Assembly: GCA_002083775.1 (NCBI GenBank)
Contig: MTEI01000004.1
Coordinates: 1 to 64,000 of the forward strand
Source of the DNA: Rhodoferax ferrireducens
Lineage (GTDB): Bacteria; Pseudomonadota; Gammaproteobacteria; Burkholderiales; Burkholderiaceae_C
DNA: 64,000 nucleotides
Reading direction: 5' to 3'
This document shows, piece by piece, positions 2,806 to 56,407 of the stretch (its first letter is position 1; each line of letters opens with the position of its first letter). Under the pieces are notes generated by a model that did not search any database, was not told the origin of the DNA, and saw only the letters and a program-made list of their open reading frames with translations. The position numbers were made by a program, and so were the translations under genes.

Positions 2806-3010
2806 GTCAGATGGCCAGTTCCGTCAAGCGAGACCCCTTGAACAGGTGCTGTTCATTGGCAAATTTGGCAACATTCGTGCCTAAGATTGGTGATTGAGCG
2901 GAGAGTATGGCGCTTTGGGGCTGCCTTTGATGTTCGCCAACGCACACACAGGTCGGCACCCAGAGCCCGTTTGAGCAGTGTGCGCCGGGGCGGCTCAGCG
3001 CCAAATCACG

Positions 3011-3613
3011 TTATTGCCAGCGCAATTCAAAGCGACAGGCGTCATCGCCCTGCGCTTCACAGGCGGTTTCTTCCACCTTGGTTTTGGGGTGCACCAACAC
3101 TTGAAACAGGCGCTCAAACGTGGCGGAGTAAAAGTCGCACACCGGCACGTCGGTGCGCACCTCGCGGCACAGCGGATTGTTGCGGATGGTCAGCACCACC
3201 GCCTCACCCACCTCGTAGCTGAACTCGCCGCTGCCGGCAAAGGTCCAGCTGTGTCCACCAATGGTTTTGAGCAGCAGCCGTGCCGACAGCGCCGCTGGCA
3301 GCGCCTTGAAAACCACCTGCGCAAATTTGGGGATACGGTTGGCCAGCAGATAGTCGGCCGTTTTCAGACCGGCTTTCCAGGTGATCTCGGCGCAGCCGGG
3401 TTGCCCCAGCGACGCACGCAGCACGTTGTGCAGGCGCAGCACCTCGGATTCAACGACCATTTTCTCGGGCAACTTGACCAGATAGTGACCCAAGCCAGCC
3501 TGTTCAAACAGGCCAGCGGTCACGTCTTGCCCAAAGGTCTCGCGCAGGGTTTCTGCCACGCGGATGATCGCGTTGGGGCCAATGCGGCCCGCAACGCCCT
3601 CGGCTGAACTCAT
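3011..3613 (-). CDS. bchJ: BchJ, 4-vinyl reductase-domain protein of bacteriochlorophyll synthesis
   Basis: A 200-residue protein with a V4R (4-vinyl reductase) domain over its C-terminal two thirds, including the small-ligand-binding end with paired cysteines (C-EAQGDDA-C). BchJ was named as a divinyl-protochlorophyllide reductase. Later work points to a substrate-delivery or stabilising role, with BciA/BciB as the main reductases. It starts in a four-base overlap with the bchE stop, so the two are co-transcribed and probably coupled. The pair implies anaerobic bacteriochlorophyll synthesis. The V4R domain also occurs in regulators such as XylR-like proteins, but this context makes BchJ the best call. 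Confidence 0.9.
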
Positions 3614-5520: not shown

Positions 5521-8139
5521 ATGACCGACACCGCCAAGCTGCACACCCCCATGATGGCCCAGTACTGGGGCCTAAAGGCGGACTACCCCGACACGCTGCT
5601 GTTTTACCGCATGGGGGATTTTTACGAACTGTTTTTTGCCGATGCTGAAAAGGCCGCGCGCTTGCTCAACATCACCCTGACGCAGCGTGGCCAAAGCGCC
5701 GGGCAGCCGGTGGTGATGGCCGGGGTGCCGTTTCACGCGGTTGAAACCTACCTGGCGCGGCTCATCAAGCTGGGGGAATCGGTGGCCATTTGCGAGCAGG
5801 TGGGCGATGTCGCCACCGCCAAGGGGCCGGTGGAGCGCAAAGTGGTGCGCGTGGTGACCCCTGGCACGCTGACGGACCTGGAACTGCTCAGCGACAAGAC
5901 CGAAGCGCTGCTGCTGGCTGTGCACCAGGGTCCGCGCGCCACCTGCGGGCTGGCCTGGTTGAGTGTGACGCAAGGCGTGGTGCATCTGGCCGAATGTGCG
6001 GCAGACGACCTGAGCGCCTGGGTGCAGCGCATCGGCGCTGGCGAGCTGATCTTCAGCGCCGGGGCCACACCGGCTTTTGAAGCGCGGTTGCGCGCCATTC
6101 CCGCTGCGCCACCGCTGTCGATCTCGGTGCGGCCTGACTGGCAGTTTGACGCTGGACTGGGCCAACGCACCCTCACCCAGCATCTGCAGGCTGCCAGCCT
6201 GGCACCCTGGCAGGCGCAGGATCTGCTGCAGGCGCAGGCCGCCGCCGCTGCGCTGCTGGGCTACGCCGAACACACCCAGGGCCGCGCGCTGAGCCACATT
6301 CACAGCGTGCGCGTGCAGCGGCAAGACGAACTGATGGACCTGCCCGCCACCACCCGGCGCAACCTGGAGCTGGTGCAAACCCTGCGCGGCGAAGAGGCAC
6401 CCACTTTGTTCTCTCTGCTGGACACCTGCAAAACCGGCATGGGCAGCCGCCTGCTCAAAAGCTGGTTGTTATCACCCCGGCGCGACCGCACTGAGGCCCG
6501 CCAGCGGCTAGGTGCCATTGAGGCACTGCGCTCGGGCGCCGCCCTGTCAGCAGGCGCTGGCCCGTGGAACAGCTTGCGCCAGCAGCTCAAGGGCAGCACC
6601 GACGTGCAACGCATCACCGCACGTATTGCGCTGCGCCAGGTGCGCCCGCGAGAGCTGGTAGGCCTGCAAAGTACACTACAAAAAACAGAGCTAATAGCCC
6701 CCGTATTACAAGGGCTAGAGGCCTATTTGACACTGATCTCTGAAAACCTGCTGCCACCCGCTGGTTGCGCCGACTTGCTGCGTAGCGCCATCCAAGCTGA
6801 GCCCGCCGCGCTGGTGCGTGACGGCGGCGTGATCGCCAGCGGGTTTGATGCCGAGTTGGACGAATTACGCGCCATTCAGACCAACTGCGACAGCTTTTTG
6901 CTCGATCTGGAAACCCGCGAGCGCGAGCGCACCGGCATCAGCAACCTGCGCGTGCAATACAACAAGGTGCACGGCTTCTATATAGAGGTGACGCAAGGCC
7001 AGGCCAGCAAGGTGCCCGACGACTACCGGCGCCGCCAGACCCTGAAAAACGCCGAGCGCTTCATCACCCCCGAACTCAAAGCCTTCGAGGACAAAGCCCT
7101 GAGCGCCCAGGAGCGCGCCCTGGCACGTGAAAAATGGCTGTACGAACAGTTGCTGGACCAACTGCAGGCTTTTGTACCCGCCCTCACCAAGCTGGCCGAG
7201 GCGCTGGCCACGCTGGACGCCCTGTGTGCGCTGGCCGAGCGCAGCCTCACCTTGGACTGGTGCGCGCCACAGTTTGTGAAAGAACCATGCATCGACATTG
7301 AGGCCGGGCGTCACCCGGTGGTGCAGGCGCGCTTGGCTGAACTGAGTTCGGGCGCCTTCATTGCCAACGACACACGTTTGGGCCCACGCCAGCGCATGCA
7401 GATCATCACCGGCCCGAATATGGGCGGCAAATCCACTTACATGCGCCAAATTGCGGTGATCGTGCTGCTGGCCAGCATGGGCAGTTATGTGCCCGCCGCC
7501 AGTTGCCGCCTCGGGCCGATCGACGCCATCCACACCCGCATCGGCGCCGCCGACGACCTGGCCAACGCCCAGTCCACCTTCATGCTGGAGATGCTGGAAG
7601 CGGCGCAGATATTGAACGCCGCCACCCCCAACTCACTGGTATTGATGGACGAAATTGGCCGCGGTACCAGCACCTTTGACGGCCTGGCGCTGGCCAGCGC
7701 CATTGCCACCCAGTTGCACGACAAAACCCAGGCGTTCACCCTGTTTGCCACGCACTACTTTGAGTTGACCGAGTTTCCAGCCACGCATCACCACGCCCAC
7801 AATGTGCATGTGAGCGCGGCAGAAAGTGGCCGCGACATCGTCTTTCTGCATGAAATCCAGAGCGGCCCGGCGAGCAAAAGTTACGGCATCCAGGTGGCGC
7901 GACTCGCCGGTATGCCCGCGGCAGTGCTCAACCATGCGCGCCATACCCTGGAGGCGCTGGAGGCGCAAGCCAGCCAGCATCAGGCGCAGGTGGATTTGTT
8001 TGCCGCGCCGGTTACTTCGGAAGTCATAGCTGAAAGCCCAGTAGATATATGGGCTAGAGCCCTAAATCCTGATAACTTTAGCCCGCGCGAGGCGCTGGAG
8101 GCGCTGTACCAGCTGAAGAAGCTGGTGGCCGGTTTGTAG
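5521..8139 (+). CDS. mutS: MutS, DNA mismatch recognition ATPase
   Basis: The mismatch-repair sensor that binds mispairs and small loops and recruits MutL. The mismatch-wedge motif F34-Y35-E36, the Walker [10 protein letters not shown] (631-639) and the Walker B DE (710-711) are all present. At 872 residues it is of usual size. ATG 5521 ([16 protein letters not shown]) is chosen over ATG 5488 because homology begins there, although no clear ribosome-binding site is seen. Two segments (about residues 388-405 and 835-852) are encoded by copies of a dispersed hairpin repeat and fall in poorly conserved linkers. The gene is divergent from bchE and convergent with the DsrE-like gene. Confidence 0.97.
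6679..6733 (+). repeat. Dispersed hairpin repeat, copy A (inside mutS)
   Basis: A copy of the window's roughly 55-bp repeat. GAGCTAATAGCCCCC and AAGGGCTAGAGGCC flank a short loop, followed by TATTTGACAC. It is in frame within mutS and encodes about residues 388-405 ([17 protein letters not shown]), where MutS homologues vary. Confidence 0.7.
8023..8076 (+). repeat. Dispersed hairpin repeat, copy B (inside mutS)
   Basis: CATAGCTGAAAGCCCA and TGGGCTAGAGCCC flank a short loop, matching the repeat consensus. It is in frame in the linker before the C-terminal MutS helix and encodes [16 protein letters not shown]. Confidence 0.65.
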
Positions 8140-8140
8140 C

Positions 8141-8641
8141 CTACCAGGCCAGGTAGGCGTAGCCTTGGCGCTGCAGGCGCATGATGGCCGAGGCGCCAAA
8201 GTCTTCCACCTCAGCAAACTCCTGCATATCACTGGCGCTCCAGCCAATGGTCCGCATGGTGTTTTCGCAAGCGATGAACTTCACCCCATACGACTCAGCC
8301 ATGCTGCGTACCCGCTGCTGAAACAGCTTGGACACCGGCCGCTTCGGGTTTTTGGCCAACACATGGATGCCCGGCCCCCACACCACCACCACGATGCTGA
8401 TGTCATCCACAAACTTGCCCAGCAGGGCGCTGATGGAGTTGAAGATTTCCTCCTGGTACTCCGGGTCGGCCTTGTTGAGCTGGTAAACGATGCGGTTGAG
8501 CGTGGCAATGTCGTCGGCAGCCGCGCCAGTGCTTTGGCCTGCCGGGCTGGGTGCGGCCGGGGCGTTCAGGCTGGCCGTGGCGGCGGCCAGACCAGCCAGA
8601 CCGGTCATCAGGTGGCGCCGCGAAGTCGGGTTGAATGTCAT
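8141..8641 (-). CDS. DsrE-family-like protein with Tat-like signal
   Basis: A 166-residue protein whose first 35 residues look like a twin-arginine signal (SRRHLMTG followed by an Ala-rich stretch). The mature part resembles the DsrE/DsrF-like fold: a beta-alpha core with FVDDISIVVVVWGPGIHVLA and a conserved Cys in FIACENTM, in the position where DsrE-like proteins carry a reactive cysteine. Such proteins act in sulfur relay or are uncharacterised. ATG 8641 is chosen because the upstream extension has no signal or homology character. A perfect FNR-type box lies about 100 bases upstream, suggesting oxygen-responsive control. It is convergent with mutS with one base between stops. Confidence 0.75.
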   Translation of the reverse strand: MTFNPTSRRHLMTGLAGLAAATASLNAPAAPSPAGQSTGAAADDIATLNRIVYQLNKADPEYQEEIFNSISALLGKFVDDISIVVVVWGPGIHVLAKNPKRPVSKLFQQRVRSMAESYGVKFIACENTMRTIGWSASDMQEFAEVEDFGASAIMRLQRQGYAYLAW

Positions 8642-8738
8642 GGTGGGCAGATGTCCGAAAGATGTACTGGGAATGACGGCCAAAATAACAACAGTGGCAA
8701 AAGCAGGGCTCACGCCACCCTGCAAATATAAGCCAGGA

Positions 8739-8752
8739 TTGATTTTGATCAA
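8739..8752. promoter_or_regulatory. Perfect FNR/ANR box
   Basis: TTGATTTTGATCAA matches TTGAT-N4-ATCAA at all ten consensus bases. It lies between the divergent DsrE-like gene (start 8641) and the Anbu gene (start 8879). A TATATT hexamer on the minus strand (8725-8730) sits 18 bases from its centre, too close for a standard class II activator. The site could therefore repress, or act on another promoter. Confidence 0.7.
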
Positions 8753-8878
8753 TCTCACTTGACTAAACTACTAGGGCTTACCCCACACGCCGGGTTGTCT
8801 GGCGCCGCGCTTACCCTCAGGGGGTCTGAGGGACAATAGCCCCTTTTGCTTCTAATTTTTGCTTTGCTATCCACATCC

Positions 8879-9706
8879 ATGACTTACTGCGTCGCCATCA
8901 AACTCAATGCCGGGCTGGTGTTCCTGTCCGACTCCCGCACCAATGCCGGGCTGGACCAGATCAGCACCTTTCGCAAAATGATCGTTTACGAAAAACCCAA
9001 CGACCGCTTCATGGTGCTGCTGTCGGCGGGCAACCTGAGCATTTCGCAGTCGGTGCGCGAGATTTTGCAGGTGGAAAAGCTCAAGGACCACGACGAGGAC
9101 GATGGCATCACCATCTGGAACGCCAAAAGCATGTTTGACGCCGCCCGCGTGCTGGGCTCGGCCATTCGGCATGTGTATGAACGCGATGCCGCTGCGCTCA
9201 AGCTCGCCGGGGTCGATTTCAACGTCAGCCTGATCTTTGGTGGCCAGATCAAGGGCGAAGGCATGCGCCTGTTCCAGGTGTATTCAGCGGGCAACTTCAT
9301 CGAAGCCACGCCCGAGACGCCGTATTTCCAGGTGGGCGAGTCCAAATACGGCAAGCCGGTGCTGGACCGCGTCATCACCCCCACCACCCCGCTGGACGAA
9401 GCCGCCAAGTGTGCGCTGGTGTCGATGGACTCCACCCTCAAATCAAATTTGTCGGTAGGCCTGCCGCTGGATCTGGTGGTGTATGAGGCCGACCGATTCC
9501 AGACCGACAAGGTGGTCTGCGTTGACGAAAACAACCCCTACTTCAAGATGCTGCACAACAGCTGGGGCGTAAAACTGCGCGAAGTGTTTGACAGCATTGA
9601 AGACCCGATGTGGAACGGCGAAGTCACCAGCGTACCACTCATGATGGCCGCCGGGCGCAGCCTGCCGCTGAAGAAAATCACCACCCCGGAAGAAAAGTTA
9701 ATCTAA
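8879..9706 (+). CDS. Anbu proteasome-type peptidase
   Basis: An Ntn-hydrolase of the Anbu (ancestral beta subunit) family related to HslV and the 20S proteasome beta subunit. The start MTYCVAIKL places Thr2 at the N-terminus after Met removal, as expected for the nucleophile. The following GLVFLSDSRTNAG and STFRKM segments are hallmark Anbu motifs. At 275 residues it is slightly longer than many. ATG 8879 is chosen because the nucleophile must be next to the initiator. Anbu usually lies beside a circularly permuted ATP-grasp, an alpha-E and a transglutaminase-like gene. None are here. Family structures are open helical rings and the physiological substrate is not established. Confidence 0.9.
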   Translation: MTYCVAIKLNAGLVFLSDSRTNAGLDQISTFRKMIVYEKPNDRFMVLLSAGNLSISQSVREILQVEKLKDHDEDDGITIWNAKSMFDAARVLGSAIRHVYERDAAALKLAGVDFNVSLIFGGQIKGEGMRLFQVYSAGNFIEATPETPYFQVGESKYGKPVLDRVITPTTPLDEAAKCALVSMDSTLKSNLSVGLPLDLVVYEADRFQTDKVVCVDENNPYFKMLHNSWGVKLREVFDSIEDPMWNGEVTSVPLMMAAGRSLPLKKITTPEEKLI

Positions 9707-9715
9707 TTGCATTGC

Positions 9716-9756
9716 GGGACAGACCAGGGCTATACGCAGTGACCCTGCTCTGTCCC
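9716..9756 (+). terminator. Hairpin between Anbu and hydrolase genes
   Basis: GGGACAGA (9716-9723) pairs perfectly with TCTGTCCC (9749-9756), with a second inner GGG/CCC pairing. There is no T-tract, so it may be a weak terminator or an mRNA-end structure rather than a classic intrinsic terminator. Confidence 0.4.
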
Positions 9757-9763
9757 CAACCGA

Positions 9764-10588
9764 ATGAAAATCGTTTTCTCGCATGCCAACAGCTTTAATG
9801 CAGACACCTACCGCATGATGTTTGCGGCGCTGCGCCAGCGCGGCCTGGAAGTTCAGGCCATCGACCAGTTTGGCCACGACCCACGTTACCCGGTTACCAG
9901 CAACTGGCCGCACCTGGTGCAGCAGCTCATCGACTTTGCCCAGCCACTGGTGCAGGCGGCGGGGCAACCGATGTTTTTCGTCGGTCACTCTCTGGGAGGT
10001 TTCCTGAGCCTGATGGCGGCTGCCAAAGCGCCTGGACTGGTGCGCGGTGTGCTGCTACTCGACGCCCCGGTGATCGGCGGCTGGCGCGCCACCGCCCTGG
10101 GTATGGCCAAACGTGCGCAGCTGGTGGGGGCGGTGTCACCCGGCAAGGTGAGCCGGCGCCGACGCAACCAGTGGGCCGACGCCGCCGAGGCCCTGGCGCA
10201 TTTTCAAAGCAAGCGCGCCTTTGCCCGCTGGCACCCGCAGGTGCTGGCCGACTACATCAGCCACGGCACGGTCAACACGCTGGTGGACGGTCAGCGCAAA
10301 CGCATGCTGCGTTTTGACCGCGATATAGAAACCGCCATCTACAACACCCTGCCCGACAACCTGGAAGCGATGCTCAAACAGCACCCGGTGAGCTGCCCGG
10401 TGGCTTTCATTGGTGGCACCCAGTCGGCTGAGATCAGGCAGGTGGGCATGGTGCTGACCCAGCGCGTAACCCATGGCCGCATCATGATGCTGGATGGCAG
10501 CCACCTGTTTCCGATGGAGCAACCGCTGGTGACCGCTGCCGCCATTGAAGCGGCGCTGCTGAACCTGGCAGTTGCCGCTCCGCTTTAA
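9764..10588 (+). CDS. Alpha/beta-hydrolase fold protein
   Basis: A 274-residue hydrolase. The nucleophile elbow GHSLGG (residues 74-79, Ser76) is clear, an oxyanion-type HANSFN stretch lies at residues 7-12, and a late Asp/His region ([10 protein letters not shown]) fits the catalytic histidine. The substrate cannot be deduced. It starts eight bases after the hairpin that follows the Anbu gene and is convergent with sthA. Close relatives are annotated only as alpha/beta hydrolase. Confidence 0.88.
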
Positions 10589-10594
10589 ACCCGC

Positions 10595-11992
10595 TCAGAA
10601 CAACCGGTTCAGACCGTTCAGCGCCGCCACCCGGTAAGCCTCGGCCATGGTGGGGTAATTGAACGTGGTCTCGGTGAAGTAGCTCAGCGTGTTGCCCGCG
10701 CCGGGCTGCGCCATGATGGCCTGGCCAATGTGCACAATCTCGGCCGCCTGCTCGCCAAAGCAGTGGATGCCCAGAATCTCCAGCGTGTCACGGTGAAACA
10801 GCACTTTGAGCATGCCCACCGTGTGCCCGGTGATTTGCGCCCGGGCAATGGATTTGAAGTCGGCCTGGGCCACCTCGTAAGGCACCTGGCGCTCCGTCAG
10901 CTCACGCTCGGTGCGGCCAATCGACGAAATCTCAGGCACGGTGTAGATGCCGGTGGGGAATTCTTCCACCAGAGACCAGTCACATTCACCGTTGAGGATG
11001 TGGGCCCCGACAAAACGACCCTGGTCGTAGCTGGCACTGGCCAGGCCCGGCGCACCCACCACGTCGCCCACGGCGTAGATGTGGGGCAGCACTGTCTGGT
11101 AGCTGCGATTCACTTCCAACTGCCCGCGGCTGTTGGCGGCCAGCCCAACCGCCTCCAGGTTCAGCTCTTGGGTGTTGCCGGTGCGGCCATTGGCCCACAG
11201 CAACACCTCGCTCATGAACTTCTTGCCTGATTTGCAATGCACCACCACACCATCGTCGCGCGTCTCCACCCGGTCGTAGGTTTCGTTATTGCGTATCACC
11301 ACCCCGCCCTGGCGCAGGTGGTACGACAAGGCATCGGTGATTTCATCGTCCAGAAACGACAGCAGGCGGTCCCGGGTGTTCACCAGGTTCACCTTGACAT
11401 CCAGGTTGCTGAAAATCGAGGCGTATTCGCAGCCAATCACCCCGGCGCCATAGATGGTGATCGAGCGCGGGGTGTGCGCCAGCTTCAGAATGCTGTCGCT
11501 GTCGTGGACGCGCGGGTGACTGAAGTCAAGCTCTGGCGGGTGATAGGGCCGCGAGCCGGTGGCAATCACAATGTGGCGGGCTTCCAGCAGCAGCGTGGCG
11601 CCATTGGGCCGCTGCACTGCCAAACGGTTGGGCGCAGCAAACCGCGCATGGCCAAAAATCACCTCCAGCCGGTTGCGCTGGTAATAGCGGTAACGGGTGC
11701 GCACTTGCTCGCTGATCACGCCGTCGGCGGCGCGCAGCAGGTCCGGAAAATCCACCTGCACCTGGTCGCGGGTGTGCTGAAACAAGGGGTTGCGCCGGTA
11801 ATCCGCCAGCATCTGGATGGAATGGCGAAGCGCCTTGCTGGGTATCGTGCCCCAATGGGTGCAGCCGCCACCCACCGCGTTGTAAGCCTCCACCACCGCC
11901 ACCCGCCACCCGGACTTGGCCAGCTTCATGGCAGCGCCTTCGCCACCCGGCCCGGTACCGATCACGATGCAGTCAAACTCACGAACCGTCAT
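10595..11992 (-). CDS. sthA: Soluble pyridine nucleotide transhydrogenase (Si-specific)
   Basis: A cytosolic FAD enzyme that transfers hydride between NADPH and NAD+, usually oxidising excess NADPH. The FAD-binding GTGPGG (12-17), the second nucleotide site [13 protein letters not shown] and the C-terminal dimerisation domain are present. The motif [13 protein letters not shown] has only one cysteine where dihydrolipoamide dehydrogenases have the CxxxxC pair, which is diagnostic of SthA. Its 465 residues match the E. coli protein (466). It stands alone, convergent with the hydrolase gene. Confidence 0.96.
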
Positions 11993-46867: not shown

Positions 46868-46955
46868 GGAGAGATGGCAGAGTGGCCGAATGTACCTGAC
46901 TCGAAATCAGGCGTACCGCAAGGTACCGTGGGTTCGAATCCCACTCTCTCCGCCA
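46868..46955 (+). tRNA. tRNA-Ser (anticodon CGA)
   Basis: An 88-base class II tRNA with encoded CCA. The acceptor GGAGAGA pairs with TCTCTCC, the discriminator is G, the anticodon stem CCTGA/TCAGG holds loop CTCGAAA, there is a long variable arm, and the T arm is GTGGG-TTCGAAT-CCCAC. It reads UCG. Its 3' end is the integration site of the adjacent element. Confidence 0.97.
46942..46955 (+). other. attL core in tRNA-Ser 3' end
   Basis: CACTCTCTCCGCCA, the tRNA 3' end, recurs as CACTCTCCCGCCA at 55462-55474 with one base missing. The integrase gene begins about 200 bases after it. Confidence 0.6.
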
Positions 46956-47000
46956 AAGATCAGTTTTCGACTGTCCACATCAGTCCAAACAAACCCCTTG

Positions 47001-47036
47001 AAAGCCCTTGTTTCCCAGTGAGACACGGGCTTTTTT
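47001..47036 (+). terminator. Intrinsic terminator after tRNA-Ser
   Basis: AAAGCCC (47001-47007) pairs with GGGCTTT (47027-47033), with further weak pairing and a T6 tract. It lies inside the element's left end, so it would serve the tRNA after integration. Confidence 0.75.
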
Positions 47037-47080
47037 GTTGCCTTAAGTCTTTCTGGGTACACTTCAAGCCACGGTTTTTT

Positions 47081-47121
47081 GTTGGTACATCTGTTGGTAG
47101 TTGGTATACCGGCTGTTGGTA
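47081..47121 (+). repeat. Left arm-type repeats (GTTGGTA x4)
   Basis: GTTGGTA occurs at 47081, 47093, 47100 and 47115, just before the integrase gene. The last is in CTGTTGGTATAT, also found at the right end (55378). These fit integrase arm-binding sites. Confidence 0.6.
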
Positions 47122-47153
47122 TATCTGGAACCCAACAAATTCAGGGGGTCAAC

Positions 47154-48368
47154 ATGGCACTGACTGACACGGCGATCAAAAAGGCACAAGTCACGGACAA
47201 GCTGCAAAAGCTGTCAGACGGTGGCGGGCTGCAGCTTCACATACCAACAACCGGCGGCAAATTGTGGCGCTGGGCGTACCGGTTCGAGGGCAAACAAAAG
47301 GCCATGGCGCTGGGCATATACCCGGCGGTGTCATTGGCCCAAGCCCGCGACAAACGCAACGAGGCAGCCAAATTGCTGGCGGCTGGCACCGACCCCATGG
47401 CCCAAAAGAAAGCCGACAAGCAGGCCAAAGAACTAGCCAGCGAAAACACCTTTGAAGCCGTAGCGGCTGATTGGCTGGCGCATTGGTCACCTGATAAAAG
47501 CCCACGCCATGCCGGGTACGTGCTGCGCAGGCTTGAAGCCGACATCTTCCCCGCCATTGGCAAACGTCCCATTGCTGACATCCAAGCCCCTGAACTGGTG
47601 GCCATGCTCAAGGCCATAGAGGCACGCGGCGCGCGTGACATCGCCAAACGGGCGCATGAAACCACCGGGCAAATATTCCGGCACGCCATCGCCCACGGTA
47701 AGGCCAGCCGTAACCCGTCCACCGACTTCAAACCCAGCGACTTTCTGAAAACCCACCGGAAAGAAAACTATGCGCGGGTTGACGCAACCGACCTACCCCA
47801 ACTGCTGCGCAAAATCGAAGCCTATCAAGGCACCCCGACCACCCGACTAGCTATTAAATTGATGTCATTGACGTTTGTTCGCACTGGTGAACTTATCGGC
47901 GCGCGCTGGGCAGAGTTCAACCTTGACGCGGCACGCTGGGACATTCCCGCCGAACGCACGAAAATGAAAACGCCTCATATCGTGCCACTGTCACCCCAAG
48001 CCCTGGACGTGCTGCGCACCCTGCACACGGTGACTGGTGGGCGGGAACTGCTGTTCCCCGGTGAACGTGACCACGCCAAACCCATGAGCAACAACACCAT
48101 TTTGAAAGCCTTGGAACGCATGGGCTACAAGGGCACCATGACCGGTCACGGGTTCCGGGGCATCGCGTCAACGGTGTTGCACGAGCACGGGTTTGACCAC
48201 GCCCACATTGAACTACAGCTGGCGCATATGGAACGCAACGCGGTGAGCGCAGCCTATAACCACGCCCTGTACCTGCCACAGCGCGCCAAGATGATGGCAT
48301 GGTGGGGCAACTACCTTGACGGTCTGACCCGTAGCAACGTGCTGCCGCTGCGCAGTCTGGCGGCGTGA
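47154..48368 (+). CDS. P4-type tyrosine integrase
   Basis: A 404-residue tyrosine recombinase with the N-terminal DUF4102-type arm-binding domain (MALTDTAIKKAQVTDKLQKL), a SAM-like core-binding domain and a catalytic domain holding R243, H332-x2-R335, H361 and a tyrosine at 368 or 374. The start is set by AGGGGG at 47143-47147. It is next to attL and reads into the element, as usual for tRNA-integrating islands. Confidence 0.95.
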   Translation: MALTDTAIKKAQVTDKLQKLSDGGGLQLHIPTTGGKLWRWAYRFEGKQKAMALGIYPAVSLAQARDKRNEAAKLLAAGTDPMAQKKADKQAKELASENTFEAVAADWLAHWSPDKSPRHAGYVLRRLEADIFPAIGKRPIADIQAPELVAMLKAIEARGARDIAKRAHETTGQIFRHAIAHGKASRNPSTDFKPSDFLKTHRKENYARVDATDLPQLLRKIEAYQGTPTTRLAIKLMSLTFVRTGELIGARWAEFNLDAARWDIPAERTKMKTPHIVPLSPQALDVLRTLHTVTGGRELLFPGERDHAKPMSNNTILKALERMGYKGTMTGHGFRGIASTVLHEHGFDHAHIELQLAHMERNAVSAAYNHALYLPQRAKMMAWWGNYLDGLTRSNVLPLRSLAA

Positions 48369-48377
48369 GGGGTGGCA

Positions 48378-48854
48378 ATGCTTGAACGTGAGGTAAGGGA
48401 CTTTCGGCGGGTAGTGCTGGAACTGATGCAAACAGGGTGCACGCTTGAACACGCCAAACACGATGCGGCATATTTGTTGGGGGTTGTATCGCCGTTTGAC
48501 GGGGAATCCATGCCAACCATGCCGCTGTCGCAAACGCGGGCGCGTGTGGGTAAACCAGCGGCTGAAGGCCTAAGCAAACGTGATGCCGTGGCCGCTGTGG
48601 CGGTTTATTTTGAGTCCGTTGGGGCTGGCACTGAGCAGGCCATAAATGAGGCCAAACGCTGGCTAAACGTGTCGCTATCCAGACGGGTGGCGAAAGATGC
48701 GGTTGCAGCTTTTAAGAGCAACACCGCCCCGGATCAATACAGGGTTCAGGCGCAGTGGGCGTATCTGACCTACAAGCCGGGAACAACTCTAAAGCTGCCT
48801 GAGACTGTCGTTAAAACCAGAAAGAAGCGACAAACCAAATGCGAATTAGGGTGA
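48378..48854 (+). CDS. Hypothetical protein of the element
   Basis: A 158-residue protein, mostly helical, with a basic C-terminus (KTRKKRQTK). No family is recognised. GTG 48372 is an alternative start. It follows the integrase by nine bases and may be co-transcribed. Confidence 0.65.
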   Translation: MLEREVRDFRRVVLELMQTGCTLEHAKHDAAYLLGVVSPFDGESMPTMPLSQTRARVGKPAAEGLSKRDAVAAVAVYFESVGAGTEQAINEAKRWLNVSLSRRVAKDAVAAFKSNTAPDQYRVQAQWAYLTYKPGTTLKLPETVVKTRKKRQTKCELG

Positions 48855-48912
48855 CAGTTATCTAGTCAAACCACCCTGACCATACAGGCACACAGAAACA
48901 ACTGGAGCCTGT

Positions 48913-49164
48913 ATGAACGGAAAAACACAAACTTCTGCCGAAGCATGGCAGGGGCTGATGGCGGCAAAAGAAGTTTGCCAACTGACTGGCGTATCGCGCG
49001 CCCACTGGCATTCGTTGGTTAAAGAGGGACGGGCACCAGCCCCGGCACTGCGGTGGGGGACTCGGTTCACCCGTTGGAAATCCAGCGATGTGCAGGGATG
49101 GCTAGCTGACCCTCAAGGCTGGATAGCTGCCCACGCAAGCGACACGCAAGAGGTGGCCGCATGA
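48913..49164 (+). CDS. AlpA-like helix-turn-helix protein
   Basis: An 83-residue protein with a MerR/AlpA-type HTH (LMAAKEVCQLTGVSRAHWHSL, about 15-35) and the following GRAPAPALRWGTRFTRW wing. AlpA-like proteins activate integrase or act as excisionases in P4-like elements. It overlaps the next gene by four bases. Confidence 0.85.
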   Translation: MNGKTQTSAEAWQGLMAAKEVCQLTGVSRAHWHSLVKEGRAPAPALRWGTRFTRWKSSDVQGWLADPQGWIAAHASDTQEVAA

Positions 49165-49475
49165 CCCCGGACATGCTCAAAAACGAACTGGACCGGGCGG
49201 AAGATGCCGAACTGCAGAGTGATGAACAACTGCGCCAGCTAACCGACCTGATCGACAAAACTTGCGGGCCGAGTCCGGCAATGAACGCCAGCGACTGCGC
49301 AAAGGTGGTTACGGCGGCGCTGGCGCTGAATGATCGACTTCGGACACGAACCGAAAAGCTGCGCAGTGAAGTCCGAATGGTCGCGGCGCGGGCTGAATCA
49401 GACGTGCGAAACGCACAGTTCAAAGCCCTGACCCAGAAGCAGTTTGCAGCGGCCAACCAGTCCGCCAAATCCTAA
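49161..49475 (+). CDS. Coiled-coil hypothetical protein
   Basis: A 104-residue, strongly helical and charged protein. LNDRLRTRTEKLRSEVRMVA suggests a coiled coil. It is coupled to the AlpA-like gene by a four-base overlap and lies 52 bases upstream of the primase-helicase gene. No family is recognised. Confidence 0.68.
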   Translation: MTPDMLKNELDRAEDAELQSDEQLRQLTDLIDKTCGPSPAMNASDCAKVVTAALALNDRLRTRTEKLRSEVRMVAARAESDVRNAQFKALTQKQFAAANQSAKS

Positions 49476-49527
49476 CCCCACAAAAAAGAACGCCCCGCTT
49501 ATTAGGGCAGGGCAAAAGGTTTACAAG

Positions 49528-52035
49528 ATGATTTTACCAAATGGACAAGAGCCGGGCGCGCCCGGTGGGGGCAACCCTGAAAGCGATGCACCGCCGCCAG
49601 TGGCACCAGTACGCCCCGTTTTGATAGAGCCCGCTCAGTTCTTTGCTGACATTGCAGTGACCCACCCCGACGGCGTGCAGGGCATCGTTATGTGTGGGCG
49701 AGACGGTACGCCGAATGACCTTCTACTGAATACGCGCGGTGCTGATCCTGGCACTTGGATGGATGAAAAAGCCAAGGGTAAAAAGCCCGCATATGGGACC
49801 ATGGGCACATTCAAACGCGACGGCGTTTCACGGTTCAAAGGGCGCACCAAAGACAACGTATTGGCGCTGGGTGGGTTCTGGATTGATGTTGAGGGCAGCG
49901 AAGCCAAAGGCGGGTATGAGGGGCAAAAAAAGGTCCTGGCCGCTGCTGTTGCATTTGGCCGGGCGACTTCAATCACCCCCACTCATTTAGTGATGACGGG
50001 CAGTGGTGGCGCCCACCTGCATTACGTCCTGACCGAGCCGATTACCCCGGCTGAGTGGCTGGGCCGGGCACAAACCCTGGTGGCGTTGGCTGCAGAACAT
50101 GGATTCAGGATTGACGCGCAGTGCACCACAGACGCGGCGCGAATCATGCGCGCGCCGGGTTCCATTCACCAGAAAACCGGCGTTGAAGTTCAGGCATACC
50201 GCTGGCGCACTGAGAATTTCACACTGCAGGGATGGGACAAGCTGACCGGCTATGTCCCCGGCGCGGTGATGGTCCCCGGTCAAGTCTCGAAGCCCCCTAA
50301 ATATGACCTGTCCGTGAACGGTGACGTGGTGGGGGCTTACGACCCATTCAGCTACAAACGAGCTGCTGAAAAATGCGGGGCCATGCGGAAAGCTGTAGAG
50401 CGCAACGGGCGCGATACACCTTACCCGGTCTGGATACTGGCGGCGAAAACCGCTGACCTTTCTATTGAGGGCCGCGAGTTCGCCCATGAAATGAGCTGTG
50501 CTCATGAGGACTACGACCAAGCCGCTACCGACAAGAAAATCGACACTCTGACCGGTGGTCCTGCGGGCTGTCTGGCTTGGGCAGCTGCGTATGGTGCGGG
50601 CGGTCCGTGTGACACCTGCGAATGGCGCGGTAAGGTGAAAAACCCGGCTGTTCAGTTTGGCACTGATGTTGACGTAACCCCGCCGGGTGAAGTGGCGCTT
50701 ATCGACCCTGAAGCCGCGCCGGACTGGGTGCAGGAACTGAACCAGCGGTTTGCCGTAGTACGCCACGGGTCCAAGATGGTGATTGCTGACCTCCAAACCC
50801 CAAACATGACCGGGCGCGGCATGGTGGATGGGATGGGTTTTCTCGACATTGGCGCGTTCTGTCAGATGCACAAAGGGCGGTTCGCCCCACTGGAAAACCC
50901 CAAGGACAAAGCGCGACCGCTGGCCCCTGCGTGGCTTGAGCACCAAGGACGGCGGCAATACGCGGGCATTGTGTACGCCCCCGGTGAAGAACTTCCACCC
51001 AATATCCTGAACCTGTGGCAAGGGTACGCTATGGCCTCCGTTGCTGGCGATGTGTCGCTGTGGCTTGAAGTGCTGGCGGCCTTGGTGCCAAACGAGTCTG
51101 AGCGAGCCTATGTGTTGCGGTGGCTGGCCTGGAAGATACAGAACCCCGGCGGCGTCCCTGACACCATCCTGATATTTAAGGGCGCAAAGGGTACGGGCAA
51201 AAACTCCCTGTTCGATCCCCTGATCCTGCTGTTTGGCCGCCATGCCATGCTGGCTGATGACCCTGAGTTGATCGCCGGGCGCTTCACTTGGCACCTCATG
51301 AGCTTGTCATTCGCCGTGCTGGACGAGGCCGTTTTCATCCAAGACCCCCGACAGGCTGACCGCATCAAATCCCGCGTGACTGCCAAAACCATGCAGTACG
51401 AGCAAAAGGGCATGGACCCGGTGCAGGGTGTCAACCGCTGCGCGTTCGTGATGCTGACCAATCATGAATACGTTTGGCCTGCCACCCGCGACGAACGCCG
51501 GGCGGTGGTGAATGAAGTTGGTGAGAGCCTGCGCGGTAATCTGGAATTCTGGACGCGTTATCACGCCTGGGCGGCAGGTTCTGGACCGGCTGCGCTGCTG
51601 CATTACCTGCAGAGCGTTGACCTGACCGGCTTCAATCCCCGCCAAATCCCCAAGGGTGAAGCCCTGCGCAAACAGGTAGAGCAAACCACATTACGCACGC
51701 CAGCGGCGGCATGGTGGCACCAGTGCTTGACCGAGGGGGCCATTCGCTGGCGCGATGGTGGGGACCGGGTTGTGTTCCTGGAGGAAGCCGCCGAAACTGA
51801 AATTGACCGGGCGGCACTGCGTTTGTCCTATGAGCAAAGCGCCGGGGCGCGTGGCCGGGTTTCATCAGACTGGGCATCCGTGGCACGGCGCATCAATGCT
51901 TGGGCGGGGGCGGCTGGCATCGGAAAAACAAGGGTCAGAACCAGTGCCGGGCGGGAATGGCGCGACGTGCTGCCTGCACTGCCAGAACTGCGGGCGGCGT
52001 TCACCACGGCAACTCAAGTGCAGGTGAATGAATGA
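49528..52035 (+). CDS. Primase-helicase of the element (PrimPol plus SF3-like helicase)
   Basis: An 835-residue replication protein. The N-terminal third has primase-polymerase features: GFWIDVEGSEAKGG, MTGSGGAHLHYVL and DAQCTTDAARIMRAPGSIH. The C-terminal part is a DUF5906/D5-like helicase with Walker A GAKGTGKNS (552-560), Walker B VLDEA (D599) and NHEYVWPATRDERR with arginine-finger candidates. This corresponds to P4 alpha. ATG 49528 is chosen over an upstream TTG. An iteron array follows directly, fitting the origin it would bind. Confidence 0.88.
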   Translation: MILPNGQEPGAPGGGNPESDAPPPVAPVRPVLIEPAQFFADIAVTHPDGVQGIVMCGRDGTPNDLLLNTRGADPGTWMDEKAKGKKPAYGTMGTFKRDGVSRFKGRTKDNVLALGGFWIDVEGSEAKGGYEGQKKVLAAAVAFGRATSITPTHLVMTGSGGAHLHYVLTEPITPAEWLGRAQTLVALAAEHGFRIDAQCTTDAARIMRAPGSIHQKTGVEVQAYRWRTENFTLQGWDKLTGYVPGAVMVPGQVSKPPKYDLSVNGDVVGAYDPFSYKRAAEKCGAMRKAVERNGRDTPYPVWILAAKTADLSIEGREFAHEMSCAHEDYDQAATDKKIDTLTGGPAGCLAWAAAYGAGGPCDTCEWRGKVKNPAVQFGTDVDVTPPGEVALIDPEAAPDWVQELNQRFAVVRHGSKMVIADLQTPNMTGRGMVDGMGFLDIGAFCQMHKGRFAPLENPKDKARPLAPAWLEHQGRRQYAGIVYAPGEELPPNILNLWQGYAMASVAGDVSLWLEVLAALVPNESERAYVLRWLAWKIQNPGGVPDTILIFKGAKGTGKNSLFDPLILLFGRHAMLADDPELIAGRFTWHLMSLSFAVLDEAVFIQDPRQADRIKSRVTAKTMQYEQKGMDPVQGVNRCAFVMLTNHEYVWPATRDERRAVVNEVGESLRGNLEFWTRYHAWAAGSGPAALLHYLQSVDLTGFNPRQIPKGEALRKQVEQTTLRTPAAAWWHQCLTEGAIRWRDGGDRVVFLEEAAETEIDRAALRLSYEQSAGARGRVSSDWASVARRINAWAGAAGIGKTRVRTSAGREWRDVLPALPELRAAFTTATQVQVNE

Positions 52036-52059
52036 AACTGTTACACGTTACACATAAAT

Positions 52060-52354
52060 GGTCCGGGTGGTCCAAGCATGGTCCAAGCATCAGCTATAAA
52101 TGTAATAGCACTAAACCCATACTGGCATTGCTCTGGTCCGGGTGGTCTAAGTGGTCTAAGCATTTTCACACTTTAATAATTTTATATGCTATAGATACCA
52201 TAGCATCACCTATGACCACGCGAGTTGCAAACTTGCGAAATTACGTGGACCACTTAGACCACCCGGACCAAGCCTTTATCCACGCCATTCCTTGCTATCA
52301 CTTTTGATTGAATGCTTGGACCATGCTTGGACCACCCCGGACCATGCCTAGACC
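52060..52354. other. Putative iteron replication origin
   Basis: About 13 copies of a GGTCC/GGTCT unit form four clusters. Two are on the plus strand (52060-52090 with GGTCCAAGCAT twice; 52135-52163 with GGTCCGGGT, GGTCTAAGT, GGTCTAAGCAT). Two are inverted (52245-52269 and 52312-52354 with ATGCTTGGACC twice). They face each other across an AT-rich stretch containing ATGCTAT/ATAGCAT as a palindrome. The position directly after the primase-helicase gene and the symmetric layout are those of an origin. Confidence 0.72.
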
Positions 52355-52426
52355 ACCCCAATGCGACCTAAATATTCAGGCCACGCACCATCACCCCGCC
52401 AACCACCACCAGAAAGGACCCTACCC

Positions 52427-53110
52427 ATGAAACCCCACCACGCCCAATTCGACACCCCGCAAGGCATGGCCGCACTCAACGCCATTGATGCCCGGTTGCG
52501 GGCACGGTTGCACACCAAAGCAGATGCCACGACGCACGCCGCCGCTTGGTATGAGTACAGGCAAGAACGCTATGTAGAGCTTGGGCTTGAGGGGCTGACC
52601 GGCCCTGATTCCTGCTACCACTTCCGAGACGCTGCCGACTACATTTTCTGGGCGGCTGGCACGTTGACCAACTCCGGCGGGTACGCTTTACACCACCCCA
52701 AAAACAAGCACCCCATCACTGCCGTCAACGTCCTGGCGAAAGGGTTCGGGTATCGCTACCTGCGGGCACTGCGCGGCCTGAATGACGCACTGATTGAAGC
52801 CGACGTTTCACCACGCAAGCTGGCGCGATTTGATGCTGAGTGCCAAGAGTTCATCGACGTGTTTATGCCCCAACTGAACGCCGCCGGGATGGTCAATGCC
52901 AAGGGGCAGAACCCGCAAGCCGTGTTTGAGGTCATTGAGATGTTCGCCCGTGAGATGGAGCGGGTTTGCGACTGGCTGGAAATGACCGGGCAATACCACC
53001 GGGCGGTCGGCATTCAGCGCACCGTGGACGATGCCCTGCACAAACTGCACACCCCGCCAGCCGATGCCCCACCACCACGCCGCCGGAAAAAGAACAAATA
53101 CTGGTGCTAA
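52427..53110 (+). CDS. Hypothetical protein of the element
   Basis: A 227-residue protein with no recognised domain. It is helical throughout, with an aromatic-rich middle (DAADYIFWAAGTLTNSGGYA) and a basic end (RRRKKNKYW). ATG 52427 follows AAAGGA at good spacing. It begins about 70 bases after the last iteron. Confidence 0.7.
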   Translation: MKPHHAQFDTPQGMAALNAIDARLRARLHTKADATTHAAAWYEYRQERYVELGLEGLTGPDSCYHFRDAADYIFWAAGTLTNSGGYALHHPKNKHPITAVNVLAKGFGYRYLRALRGLNDALIEADVSPRKLARFDAECQEFIDVFMPQLNAAGMVNAKGQNPQAVFEVIEMFAREMERVCDWLEMTGQYHRAVGIQRTVDDALHKLHTPPADAPPPRRRKKNKYWC

Positions 53111-53149
53111 ACGCGTACGCAAGCCCCTGACATCGGCTGATTTTTCAGC

Positions 53150-53782
53150 TTATGCAGTTGGGTGCGTGACGTACTTCTTTTTGTTTCGAAGTGCAATCCA
53201 TAAACTCCCTAATCCCAAAAGCATCAATGCGTAACTTGCAGGTTCGGGCACTGGCGTGGCTGGCACTTCGTTTATTGTGATGGAACCTAAGCGCACACTT
53301 AGCGCTGCCAGCTCTGGCTGGCCGATTGCTATAGACTGAACACCTTCAATATTTTCGGAATACACCGAAAATGAATTGTCAGCAGACACAAAAAGTTCAC
53401 GTACGGCAAGAGATATACCCCCGGCCCCGGAAAATTCCAGAAGGATTGGGTAGGGGTAACGACCCATACCAAAGTCGTCCCAAGGCCAACCACCAATTTC
53501 AATAGAGTTGAAGGTAAACGTGCCAAATGCACTGGTTAACGCCCCGCGGTTTCCGGGGATGTATGGCGCGTTTCTAGTGTCTGCACCGTAATTTGAGCTC
53601 CAATAGGGGTTGAAATCAAATCCTCCTATGGTCGGCCACGTTAGCGAACTAAATGAATGTGCTCCTTCTGGCACAGTGAAGATTATTTGAGTGGCACTGG
53701 CAGTTACTGAACCAAAAAGGGAAATCAACAGCAGGAATCGTAGCAATGCTCGCCGCATCGATAAACAAAAGAGAATCTTCAT
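53150..53782 (-). CDS. PEP-CTERM sorting-signal protein (cargo)
   Basis: A 210-residue exported protein. A signal peptide (about 1-30, LLRFLLLISLFGSVTASA) is followed by a beta-rich body and a C-terminal PEP-CTERM signal (VPEPASYALMLLGLG, then a basic tail RNKKK). Such proteins are processed by exosortase/archaeosortase-type EpsH and reach the surface. The gene is opposite in direction and more AT-rich than its neighbours, so it looks like cargo. No exosortase is in the window. Confidence 0.85.
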   Translation of the reverse strand: MKILFCLSMRRALLRFLLLISLFGSVTASATQIIFTVPEGAHSFSSLTWPTIGGFDFNPYWSSNYGADTRNAPYIPGNRGALTSAFGTFTFNSIEIGGWPWDDFGMGRYPYPILLEFSGAGGISLAVRELFVSADNSFSVYSENIEGVQSIAIGQPELAALSVRLGSITINEVPATPVPEPASYALMLLGLGSLWIALRNKKKYVTHPTA

Positions 53783-54096
53783 TCAACCCTTAGATGAATG
53801 CGGCCGCTCTATGGCAGTTGCTCCGCGTGTGCACAAGTATCCATACGACTTTGTGAGTTCATCTTACCCGGCATGAGACGGCGAATCGGCACCAACTCCC
53901 AAAATATATGGAGTCTAAAAAGACGGGGGGCGGGGTCAAATTTCACAGCATGAAACCGAAACCGAAATCGGGTTTCGATACAGGCGCCCCTCTCTGTGGT
54001 GGCGGGGGGCATGAAAAGCCCTTGGTCCCACGGCATCCACCGGGGGGGGTACCCTGCCAGACGGTTGACCTGATCCCCTTGCCATAGGAGATCAAC
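53783..54096. other. Non-coding gap with G-tracts
   Basis: No convincing gene. It should hold the PEP-CTERM promoter on the minus strand. The plus strand has G-runs at 53925-53930, 53932-53935, 54004-54009 and 54042-54049 (eight Gs). Confidence 0.5.
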
Positions 54097-54540
54097 ATGC
54101 CCAACTACCCACACCCCATCATCCTGCAGGCACTTGAACTGCTGGCCTGCGAGATACGCCACACCGACACGCTGACATCACCCGATGCCGTCAAGGATTA
54201 CCTACGGTTGAAGCTGGCGCCTATGCAGAGGGAGGTGTTCGCGGTGTTGTTCCTTGACTGTCAACACCGGGTCATTGAGTATGAAGAACTGTTCCAAGGG
54301 ACGTTGACTCAGACTAGCGTCTACCCCCGTGAAGTGGTCCGGGCCGCACTGATGCACAACGCGGCAGCGGTCATCCTGGCGCACAACCACCCGTCAGGCA
54401 GCGCCACACCATCACGGGCCGATGAACTGCTGACCCAGACCCTAAAACAAGCCCTGGCGCTGGTTGACGTTCGGGTGTTGGATCATCTTGTTGTCACGAC
54501 TGGCGAATGCCTGAGCATGGCTGAGCATGGCCTGATGTGA
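54097..54540 (+). CDS. RadC-like JAB-domain protein
   Basis: A 147-residue JAMM/MPN-domain protein without the N-terminal HhH part of chromosomal RadC. The metal motif H96-x-H98 with D109 ([14 protein letters not shown]) is intact. Short RadC proteins are common on integrative elements and phage satellites. Their role is unproven, with DNA repair doubtful. Confidence 0.92.
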
Positions 54541-54626
54541 ATTTGTTTTTCATTGGTAATAATAGCTTGACAAACTATGATAAACAGGTAAAATGTAGGC
54601 TTCAATCAACCACTTGAAAGCCCGCC

Positions 54627-55040
54627 ATGCGCACCCCATCCAAGGAAATAATCGAAACCCGCCTGCACCAGTGGAAACTGTTCTTTGAGTCCGAACAAGC
54701 CCGGTCTACGGGGTTCGGCACTGTGCTGGCGGACAACGACCCACGGCTGATCCAAGAGGGTGCGGACCCCAAAACATGCGACGTTGATGCAGTGACCGAA
54801 GCGGCGGCACGGCTGGGTGTCGAGTTGAACGACCTGCCCCTGATCGAATTGGCCGAACTGGTGGACATGATGGCAACCAACTACCTATGGCGCGAAGACG
54901 ACGAACTACACGCCGCGTTGATGCAGGATGACCCAGAACTTGAACCCGACTGCGAGCCACCACCTGCAGCCAATCCAATGACACCCGAAGAACGTGCCAC
55001 CCTGCACGCAGAGCTAGACGCCATCCTTGACGCTGCCTGA
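54627..55040 (+). CDS. Hypothetical acidic protein
   Basis: A 137-residue, strongly acidic protein (DDELHAALMQDDPELEPDCE). No family is recognised. It lies between radC and the element's last gene, facing the same way. Confidence 0.65.
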   Translation: MRTPSKEIIETRLHQWKLFFESEQARSTGFGTVLADNDPRLIQEGADPKTCDVDAVTEAAARLGVELNDLPLIELAELVDMMATNYLWREDDELHAALMQDDPELEPDCEPPPAANPMTPEERATLHAELDAILDAA

Positions 55041-55106
55041 GCATGGCCCCTGCGGGGGCTTTCTCTGTTTGGGGAACGGTAATAAAGACTTTTTGTGAGA
55101 GCAGCT

Positions 55107-55364
55107 ATGGTCAAAGAACAAACACACCCACACGTCAAACTTGACGCTGATCAGCGTGCCGACTTGGTACGCCGTTCCTATGCTGCATGGTTCAAAGCTG
55201 GCGGCACTGAGACCCCCACAGAGCGCAGCGGCGTGAAGATGCGCCTAGGGCTAGCCTATGTGGTGCTGCACGGCACTGGCGGGGTTCTGGCGGTCTATCG
55301 GGTACGTCCTGACAACATGGCACTGAGGGTGCTCAAACGGTGGCCTGTGAGCCTTGAATCATGA
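55107..55364 (+). CDS. Small hypothetical protein at element right end
   Basis: An 85-residue protein (MVKEQTHPHVKLDADQRADL). No family is recognised. ATG 55107 is chosen over GTG 55095. Its end lies 16 bases before the right arm-type repeats. Confidence 0.62.
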   Translation: MVKEQTHPHVKLDADQRADLVRRSYAAWFKAGGTETPTERSGVKMRLGLAYVVLHGTGGVLAVYRVRPDNMALRVLKRWPVSLES

Positions 55365-55379
55365 GCGTCAAAACTACCT

Positions 55380-55398
55380 GTTGGTATATTTGTTGGTA
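55380..55398 (+). repeat. Right arm-type repeats (GTTGGTA x2)
   Basis: GTTGGTA at 55380 and 55392. The first lies in CTGTTGGTATAT, matching the left end at 47113. They sit about 65-80 bases inside the proposed attR. Confidence 0.6.
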
Positions 55399-55461
55399 TG
55401 GCATCGTTTCAATTTTGAAAAACCCAGCATTCATGCGGGTTTGCGGGCATGATAGGAACGA

Positions 55462-55474
55462 CACTCTCCCGCCA
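55462..55474 (+). other. Putative degenerate attR
   Basis: CACTCTCCCGCCA differs from the tRNA-Ser end CACTCTCTCCGCCA by one missing base. It is followed after 12 bases by an intrinsic terminator, which is probably the tRNA's original one. Confidence 0.5.
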
Positions 55475-55486
55475 GGTTGCATAAGA

Positions 55487-55520
55487 AAAGCCCACTATCA
55501 AATACGTAGTGGGCTTTTTT
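55487..55520 (+). terminator. Intrinsic terminator, probably ancestral to tRNA-Ser
   Basis: AAAGCCCACTA (55487-55497) pairs perfectly with TAGTGGGCTTT (55507-55517), followed by more T. It lies just outside attR, the place expected for the tRNA terminator before integration. Confidence 0.85.
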
Positions 55521-55606
55521 ATTTGGTGTTGCCGTGTAGCAACTGTTCAACCATCAGTACGGTTTTTGCATGTCGTCGAACCAGACAACACCGCCAACCA
55601 GTAGCC

Positions 55607-55945: not shown

Positions 55946-56407
55946 ATGACCAGTCCCACCAAACCAGCAAACAAGTCCAGCCCGAAAGCCGCACGCAAGA
56001 CAGCGGCAACGACACCCATTCAGGCAGTTGCAAAAAAAGTGGCTGCGAAGCCACCAACGGTGGCCAAGACAGAGAAAGTCGCCGAGCCATCCCTGCGCTT
56101 TTACCACTCAAAAACACTGCGAACCCGCACCCACAGTGTGCTGACTGCTATTGAAACCACACCAGAGGCGCCCGGCCATGGTGAAGCGCTGGCCGATGTG
56201 GTGAATGACCTGATTGATGCGGGCATGGACTATTACTTTTTGCGCCCGCTCAAACAAGCCGAGGTGGGTTTTGTTGCCGAGCAGTCCGCGCGGTTGGGGC
56301 TGTCTGGCGCGGTGCGGCTGATCAGCTCAGTCAGCCGCAAATTCATCGTGCGGATGGAGCCGCAGCAGCTCCAGGTGGTGGCCACACACATCCGTGCGCT
56401 CACATAA
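55946..56407 (+). CDS. Hypothetical protein with Lys/Ala-rich N-terminus
   Basis: A 153-residue protein. The first 50 residues are Lys/Ala/Pro-rich, like histone H1-type or phasin-related tails. The rest is a compact domain (SLRFYHSKTLRTRTHSVLTA onward) I do not recognise. It begins after AAGGAG (55933-55938). DNA binding by the tail is possible but unproven. Confidence 0.7.
   Translation: MTSPTKPANKSSPKAARKTAATTPIQAVAKKVAAKPPTVAKTEKVAEPSLRFYHSKTLRTRTHSVLTAIETTPEAPGHGEALADVVNDLIDAGMDYYFLRPLKQAEVGFVAEQSARLGLSGAVRLISSVSRKFIVRMEPQQLQVVATHIRALT

Follow-up and report, generated by a model that had tools for sequence, protein, structure and literature searches.

A putative iteron replication origin with mirrored repeat clusters beside a DUF5906 primase-helicase gene, and similar arrays on islands and small plasmids

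Symmetric iteron sets are said to have been described in a 2012 paper on the SaPIbov1 origin. The origins of PICIs, as the text of Fillol-Salom et al. (2018, PMC6092414) presents them, sit directly 3' of the initiation gene and always comprise two iteron sets around an AT-rich region; the same text calls this organization unique among known bacterial replicons, and one pri-ori pair, that of EcCICFT073, maintained a plasmid in E. coli. For Gram-negative PICIs the origin is likewise reported downstream of pri (PMC10111431), the oppositely oriented repeats of SaPI origins are described as loading two head-to-head hexamers (PMC9894130), and SaPI and SCCmec iterons are placed 3' of the helicase gene, with the C-terminal domain of SCCmec Cch2 binding repeats 3' of its own gene (PMC7581432).

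We analyzed a window of 64,000 nucleotides from Rhodoferax ferrireducens (contig MTEI01000004.1) and found that positions 52059-52355, directly behind a primase-helicase gene, very probably form the replication origin of an integrated island, which the island's own primase-helicase would bind as two facing assemblies. Geometry, position, conservation and a family survey all make an iteron-type origin beside this gene the best reading of the sequence, as the original prediction proposed. That prediction also held that no described satellite origin has such a layout, which is contradicted by the PICI origins, since an AT-rich region with an iteron set on each side, directly 3' of pri/rep, is already published for them (Fillol-Salom et al. 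2018, PMC6092414). The locus resembles the PICI and SaPI origins of that description in lying 3' of an initiator gene and in having two iteron sets around a core that is, here, partly AT-rich; it departs from the PICI descriptions, compared by text only, in its four clusters with an inner pitch of 9 bp and an outer pitch of 9-11 bp. The putative SCCmec Cch2 origin also pairs an initiator helicase with iterons 3' of its gene, but there the repeats are direct (three of AAGTG) and the polymerase-primase is separate, according to the text of PMC7581432. What is new is this member with its repeat unit, the recurrent four-cluster plan with 9-bp pitch, and its presence on plasmids. The GGTCC/GGTCT unit does not appear in the text on PICI and SaPI origins that we covered, as distinct from the published figure of iteron sequences, and the openly available main texts on DUF5906 origins or satellite primase-helicase iterons, apart from figures, supplements and subscription journals, gave no description of a four-cluster plan.

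A candidate satellite island at a tRNA-Ser gene

The island is integrated at a tRNA-Ser(CGA) gene (46868-46955, + strand) identified with ARAGORN and supported as the integration site by comparison with an empty site (L027), where the sequence following this tRNA matches window positions 56084-56394 and a gene resembling 55946-56407 lies within about 0.2 kb of that tRNA. The probable attR, ACTCTCCCGCCA (55463-55474, + strand), lacks one base relative to the tRNA 3' end, ACTCTCTCCGCCA (46943-46955); we infer this pairing, because an ungapped search with up to three mismatches found the tRNA copy alone. With the tRNA-Ser gene as the left end and this probable right end, the island measures about 8.5 kb. 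The + strand of the window contains eight copies of the heptamer GTTGGTA, with four at 47081-47121 and two at 55380-55398, and the copies near both island ends are perhaps integrase arm sites.

On the + strand the island begins with a tyrosine recombinase (integrase) gene (47154-48368; Pfam PF22022, PF13356, PF00589), directly followed by a small gene with no family match (48372-48854), an AlpA-like excisionase or regulator (48913-49164; PF05930, E 7e-6; phrog_66, E 1e-6), a second small gene with no family match that overlaps the AlpA-like gene by four bases (49161-49475), and the primase-helicase gene (49528-52035; DUF5906/SF3-type, PF19263 and phrog_1156), whose start was set by comparison with the relatives L002-L004. 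Beyond the repeats come a + strand gene with no family match (52427-53110), over which the L002 alignment reaches 53097, and a RadC-like JAB protein gene (54097-54540, + strand; PF04002, E 8e-47) with two further small genes behind it. A PEP-CTERM protein gene (53150-53782) is encoded on the - strand, opposite to the other genes, and has the look of cargo.

This gene order is that of the PICMIs of Vibrionaceae, given in the text of PMC10803314 as int, iolg, alpA, up1 and prim: integrase, alpA and a DUF5906/DUF3987 primase are colocalized, the small gene behind int takes the iolg position (from gene order only), and as in PICMIs there is no capsid gene. The island differs in being about 8.5 kb long, in lying outside Vibrionaceae and in its position at tRNA-Ser rather than downstream of fis; the word "iteron" does not occur in the main text of the PICMI paper (PMC10803314). 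With PICIs the island shares int, an AlpA-type regulator and the primase-helicase, whereas family scans matched no helper or packaging gene. More widely, the island proteins gave no match to packaging, terminase, capsid or interference families in Pfam, PHROG and further family scans, nor to a partition family, and five of them match no family at all; PADLOC returned nothing for eight island proteins, and Rfam nothing at gathering score in 46900-55600. Given its int, AlpA and primase-helicase genes, it is plausible to call the island a satellite, as a candidate only.

Mirrored repeat clusters and their core

Between the primase-helicase stop (52035) and the start of the next gene (52427) we counted 13 TGGTC(C/T) units at 52059-52355, in the order +3 +3 -3 -4, which bears out the predicted four GGTCC/GGTCT clusters in plus, plus, minus, minus orientation. 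The first unit, at 52059, follows the stop almost at once, so the repeats begin immediately 3' of the gene, as in PICIs, and the predicted neighborhood of array and primase-helicase gene holds. The outer left triad (52059-52084, + strand) has units at 52059, 52068 and 52079, with pitches of 9 and 11 bp, and the inner left triad (52134-52160, + strand) has units at 52134, 52143 and 52152, all 9 bp apart. On the other side, the inner right triad (52244-52270, - strand; unit low ends 52247, 52256 and 52265) again has a pitch of 9 bp, and the outer right cluster (52318-52355, - strand) consists of four units with low ends at 52318, 52329, 52339 and 52350 and a pitch of 10-11 bp. The pitch is therefore 9 bp in both inner clusters and 9-11 bp across the outer two. 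Although the hexamer TGGTC[CT] occurs 73 times in the window (35 on the + and 38 on the - strand), no 300-bp stretch away from this locus holds more than two, and the Poisson probability of at least 13 units in 300 bp is 1e-16.

This solitary cluster bears on one alternative, that the repeats form a cis region like P4 crr, which the initiator binds and replication requires, with the strand-opening origin elsewhere in the element. In P4, too, a primase-helicase gene, alpha, has repeats directly 3' of it, in crr, with type 1 repeats in both orientations, some of them 9 bp apart, while the annotated ori, with its start at 9086, is about 4.5 kb away. A P4-type element would have a separate ori and crr with the same repeat, but the unit forms one cluster in the window; P4 crr is moreover a direct duplication of a 120-bp block, not a mirror like the island array, and fails to reach four units in the facing-array test described below. 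P4 alpha itself has a Toprim-type primase according to the text of PMC4234260. We regard a crr-like role as very unlikely.

Six unit pairs are symmetric about a common axis near 52201.5 (at 52202.0 in the three inner pairs and at 52201.0-52201.5 in the three outer ones), and the thirteenth unit is unpaired. The inner right triad mirrors the inner left one at 25 of 27 nt within an inverted repeat of 37-nt arms that are 86% complementary, in keeping with the prediction that the second and third clusters are near-perfect inverted copies; a further inverted repeat joins clusters one and four (26-nt arms, 100% complementary), which the prediction had not mentioned.

Arms of this kind could also act as a stem-loop or cruciform, a role proposed for the origin of plasmid pRN1, instead of as protein-bound iterons. 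Folded as a single DNA strand, 52130-52275 has a z score of -10.6 against 200 dinucleotide shuffles, and pRN1, whose origin shares the position 3' of a primase-SF3 helicase gene and the inverted arms around a loop, needs a 100-nt stem-loop 3' of its primase-SF3-winged-helix gene for replication, a stem-loop that according to its authors lacks the iteron structure found in the island (text of PMC4234260). A stem would have no need, however, for arms that repeat themselves at 9 bp, which is what they do: across 12 loci picked by eye, as a descriptive measure only, the mean arm self-match is 0.70 at a shift of 9 and 0.22-0.27 at shifts of 6-8 and 10-13. The looser pitch of the outer clusters also speaks against a stem. 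We give this alternative a slight chance, and favor protein-bound iterons.

The core between the inner triads (52164-52245, 82 bp) has a GC content of 35%, so the predicted AT-rich core stands in its low GC, but it is asymmetric, with the AT-richness concentrated in the left part (52164-52215, 27% GC). The predicted central palindrome exists as a hairpin, ATGCTAT-7-ATAGCAT (52186-52206), though its center near 52196 is about 5.5 bp off the mirror axis; L002 has it as well, but it is missing from the cores of the other three relatives that keep the arrangement (L004, L007 and L009), and we therefore rejected it as a general origin part. The cores of these three have a GC content of 48-51% and look asymmetric despite their mirrored arms, being AT-rich beside the left triad; in L004 and L007, C-rich stretches follow on the gene strand, further right. 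A by-eye look also turned up TTATCCACG near 52277, one letter from what we take to be the DnaA box consensus. This DnaA-box-like TTATCCACG is not kept in L004.

Conservation in relatives and the primase-helicase

A scan of genome contigs gave four loci, and scans of viral contigs (protein, five-sequence profile) gave no relative confirmed by tblastn. The nearest named relatives, Polaromonas and uncultured beta proteobacteria, point to a betaproteobacterial host. The arrangement is kept in four relatives whose primase-helicases share 90% (L002), 65% (L004), 52% (L007) and 30% (L009, over residues 429-859) identity with that of the window. Within each of these loci and the window, the inner arms mirror each other at 22-25 of 27 nt, and the 36-letter arms are separated by 65-77 bp; the cluster order of L009, +2+3-3-2, is like the ++ -- of the window. 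The unit itself is nearly unchanged in L002 and L004, with one and three differing positions, respectively, none of which is shared by the two arms. Four letter changes relative to the window (T>G, C>T, T>C and T>G) occur identically in the two arms of L007, and three (C>A, T>A and A>T) in those of L009. Coordinated change is thus seen in just two of the four relatives, since the differences in L002 and L004 are one-armed. A protein that reads the two arms would enforce identical changes of this kind, and these would preserve a stem as well. A further locus, L003, shows only the left clusters (6613-6772), because its contig ends inside the origin core; the end comes right after the left clusters, as if the inverted repeats had broken the assembly. 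Elsewhere, L042 (G009:C106, approximately 7143-10827) contains two tandem primase-helicase matches, of which the second, a fragment containing two TGA stops, is probably the remains of another island.

The C-terminal half of the primase-helicase is a DUF5906/SF3-type helicase (PF19263, E 9e-16), and the protein matches phage DNA primase families, including phrog_1156 DNA primase. In the N-terminal half, residues 176-223 weakly match a PriS model (E 9e-6, far under the curated cut-off), a hint of an archaeo-eukaryotic primase domain. Among solved structures, the chains closest in sequence are PDB 6k9e and 6k9c, labeled "Primase" (E 2.6e-7 with a five-sequence profile), which we take to be the primase of phage NrS-1. 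A full-length structure model reached a pLDDT of 32. The model of the C-terminal 136 residues, at a mean pLDDT of 62, runs H-E-E-H-H-E-E-H from residue 26, an element order as in a winged helix, though the fold is weakly supported. Foldseek searches of this domain model against PDB and BFVD gave no match at E <= 0.001; the best BFVD matches were a viral DNA helicase (E 0.0075) and Gp33 of phage PhiJL001 (E 0.023), and the P4 origin-binding domain appeared in the PDB comparison at E 0.76 only.

By analogy with Cch2 and P4 alpha, the C-terminal domain would be the part that contacts the iterons. We infer the binding, loading, melting and priming steps and the direction of replication as follows: the island primase-helicase would bind the TGGTC(C/T) units, probably through this domain, and on the oppositely oriented arms two helicase assemblies would be loaded face to face, with the core of about 82-83 bp between them and the outer clusters as additional places to dock. 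The left side of the core, rich in AT, may then melt, the primase domain of the protein would make primers, and a host polymerase would copy the excised circle.

Facing arrays across DUF5906 islands and plasmids

PF19263 has matches in 18 of 274 genomes at class level and in 53 of 299 at phylum level, the window's own genome being included in both. The survey drew on 48 loci (L046-L093), with the phylum-level part made up of the best-scoring 30 loci among more matches; we left out the window itself (L053), a locus with a stop inside the domain (L049) and one whose contig ends before the stop (L051), which left 45 loci in 41 clusters at 60% protein identity. The array test looked up to 500 bp 3' of the stop for a seven-letter word with one mismatch, repeated at a pitch of 8-12 bp, with a reverse array 25-200 bp away, and counted loci with at least five units.

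Facing arrays of at least five units lie behind 23 of the 45 survey loci (among the matches listed) and are missing behind the other 22, compared with 0/45 coding stretches of the same loci and a fraction of 0.000 among 900 dinucleotide shuffles. Downstream of other long ORFs they were found in 2 of 92 stretches (Fisher 1e-11 against the survey loci). These ORFs, of at least 200 codons, were picked mechanically from the window, L022, L023, L040-L045 and L094, mostly other genomes than those of the survey, and gave 97 stretches, less five lying 3' of DUF5906 genes. We gave up four units as a cut-off, since 15 of the 92 reach it. Exact six-letter words in at least four units gave 13 of the 45 survey loci and none of the 45 controls, and a second measure, a 27-nt mirror pair with at least 21 matches, picked out 19/45 loci and 0/165 shuffles. 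Either measure was positive at 28 of the 45 loci among the matches listed, both at 14 and neither at 17.

Same-orientation array pairs of at least five units were enriched as well (17/45 survey loci versus 1/45 coding stretches), which fits the ++ -- layout, so facing arms are not the sole pattern. Cluster order itself was ++ then -- in six survey loci among the matches listed: +4+3-3-3 in L046 and L069, +3+3-3-2 in L061, +3+3-2-2 in L062, +3+3-3-3 in L072 and +2+3-3-2 in L076. In the 23 strong loci the commonest pitch was 9 bp (66 of 131 steps), and core GC fell below that of the locus's own gene in 18 of 22 measurable cores and not in the other four. The cores of L046, L061, L069, L072 and L076 contain alternating CGCGCG/GCGCGC-type or similar stretches and are not simply AT-rich. 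Scoring of relatives took in L007, L009, L010, L012, L014 and L015 and left out L005, as well as L008, L011 and L013, whose genes are cut or incomplete; further relatives scored five (L010, L012 and L015) or four (L014) facing units. Of 449 phage records we took two, L022 and L023, and both scored four units, below the five-unit criterion.

Small plasmids carry the same arrays. Our sample was six small DUF5906 plasmids out of 12 records, with a seventh small one, H23, left out, and at least five facing units were found in four of the six: pMP1, a Roseomonas plasmid, pMNOD07 and pW47-1. The array test found no facing arrays in the Klebsiella and Citrobacter plasmids (L020 and L021); in L021, facing repeats are visible by eye further downstream and stand outside this count. 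No Pfam replication family was matched among the 20 proteins scanned of 37 other annotated ones on five plasmids with incomplete gene tables. On such plasmids the DUF5906 gene and its arrays are natural candidates for initiator and origin.

A last alternative for the island locus is that it serves not as an origin but as a control region, such as a site for partition, incompatibility, transcription or packaging. Iterons can serve in copy control, and the position between two same-strand genes would suit such a site. The family scans, however, matched no partition, terminase or capsid family in the island, five of whose proteins are without any family, and the arrays accompany DUF5906 genes on islands and plasmids alike. 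We consider a control region extremely unlikely, and continue to read the locus as an origin.

The recurrence of the same plan beside many related genes, some of them on small plasmids, suggests a wider rule, and we lean toward the view that the DUF5906 family uses one docking architecture: two facing arms, often of two triads each, with an inner pitch of 9 bp and mostly 65-100 bp between the inner triads, would be common to integrated islands and free small plasmids in Pseudomonadota, with a unit whose sequence turns over but stays matched between the arms. If so, the plan would not be PICI-specific, contrary to the uniqueness statement in the text of PMC6092414, and stem-loop origins like that of pRN1 could represent a related form. 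Facing arrays directly 3' of a DUF5906 gene, with a pitch of about 9 bp, would then offer a sequence-only rule for candidate origins of uncharacterized islands and small plasmids. Because the unit varies while the geometry stays constant between relatives, these loci form a natural series for how a self-loading helicase reads DNA, and they are also suited to working out the face-to-face placement of two helicases. The regularity across the DUF5906 family deserves to be followed up, as does the presence of the arrays on free plasmids.

Two of the array-bearing plasmids also encode tail proteins. In pMP1 (L016), positions 3281-5071 are annotated as a phage tail protein with no Pfam match, and in pW47-1 (L019), 912-3203 encode a PhageMin_Tail protein (PF10145, E 8e-38). 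Small DUF5906 plasmids with tail proteins, such as these two, are possibly plasmid-form phage satellites.
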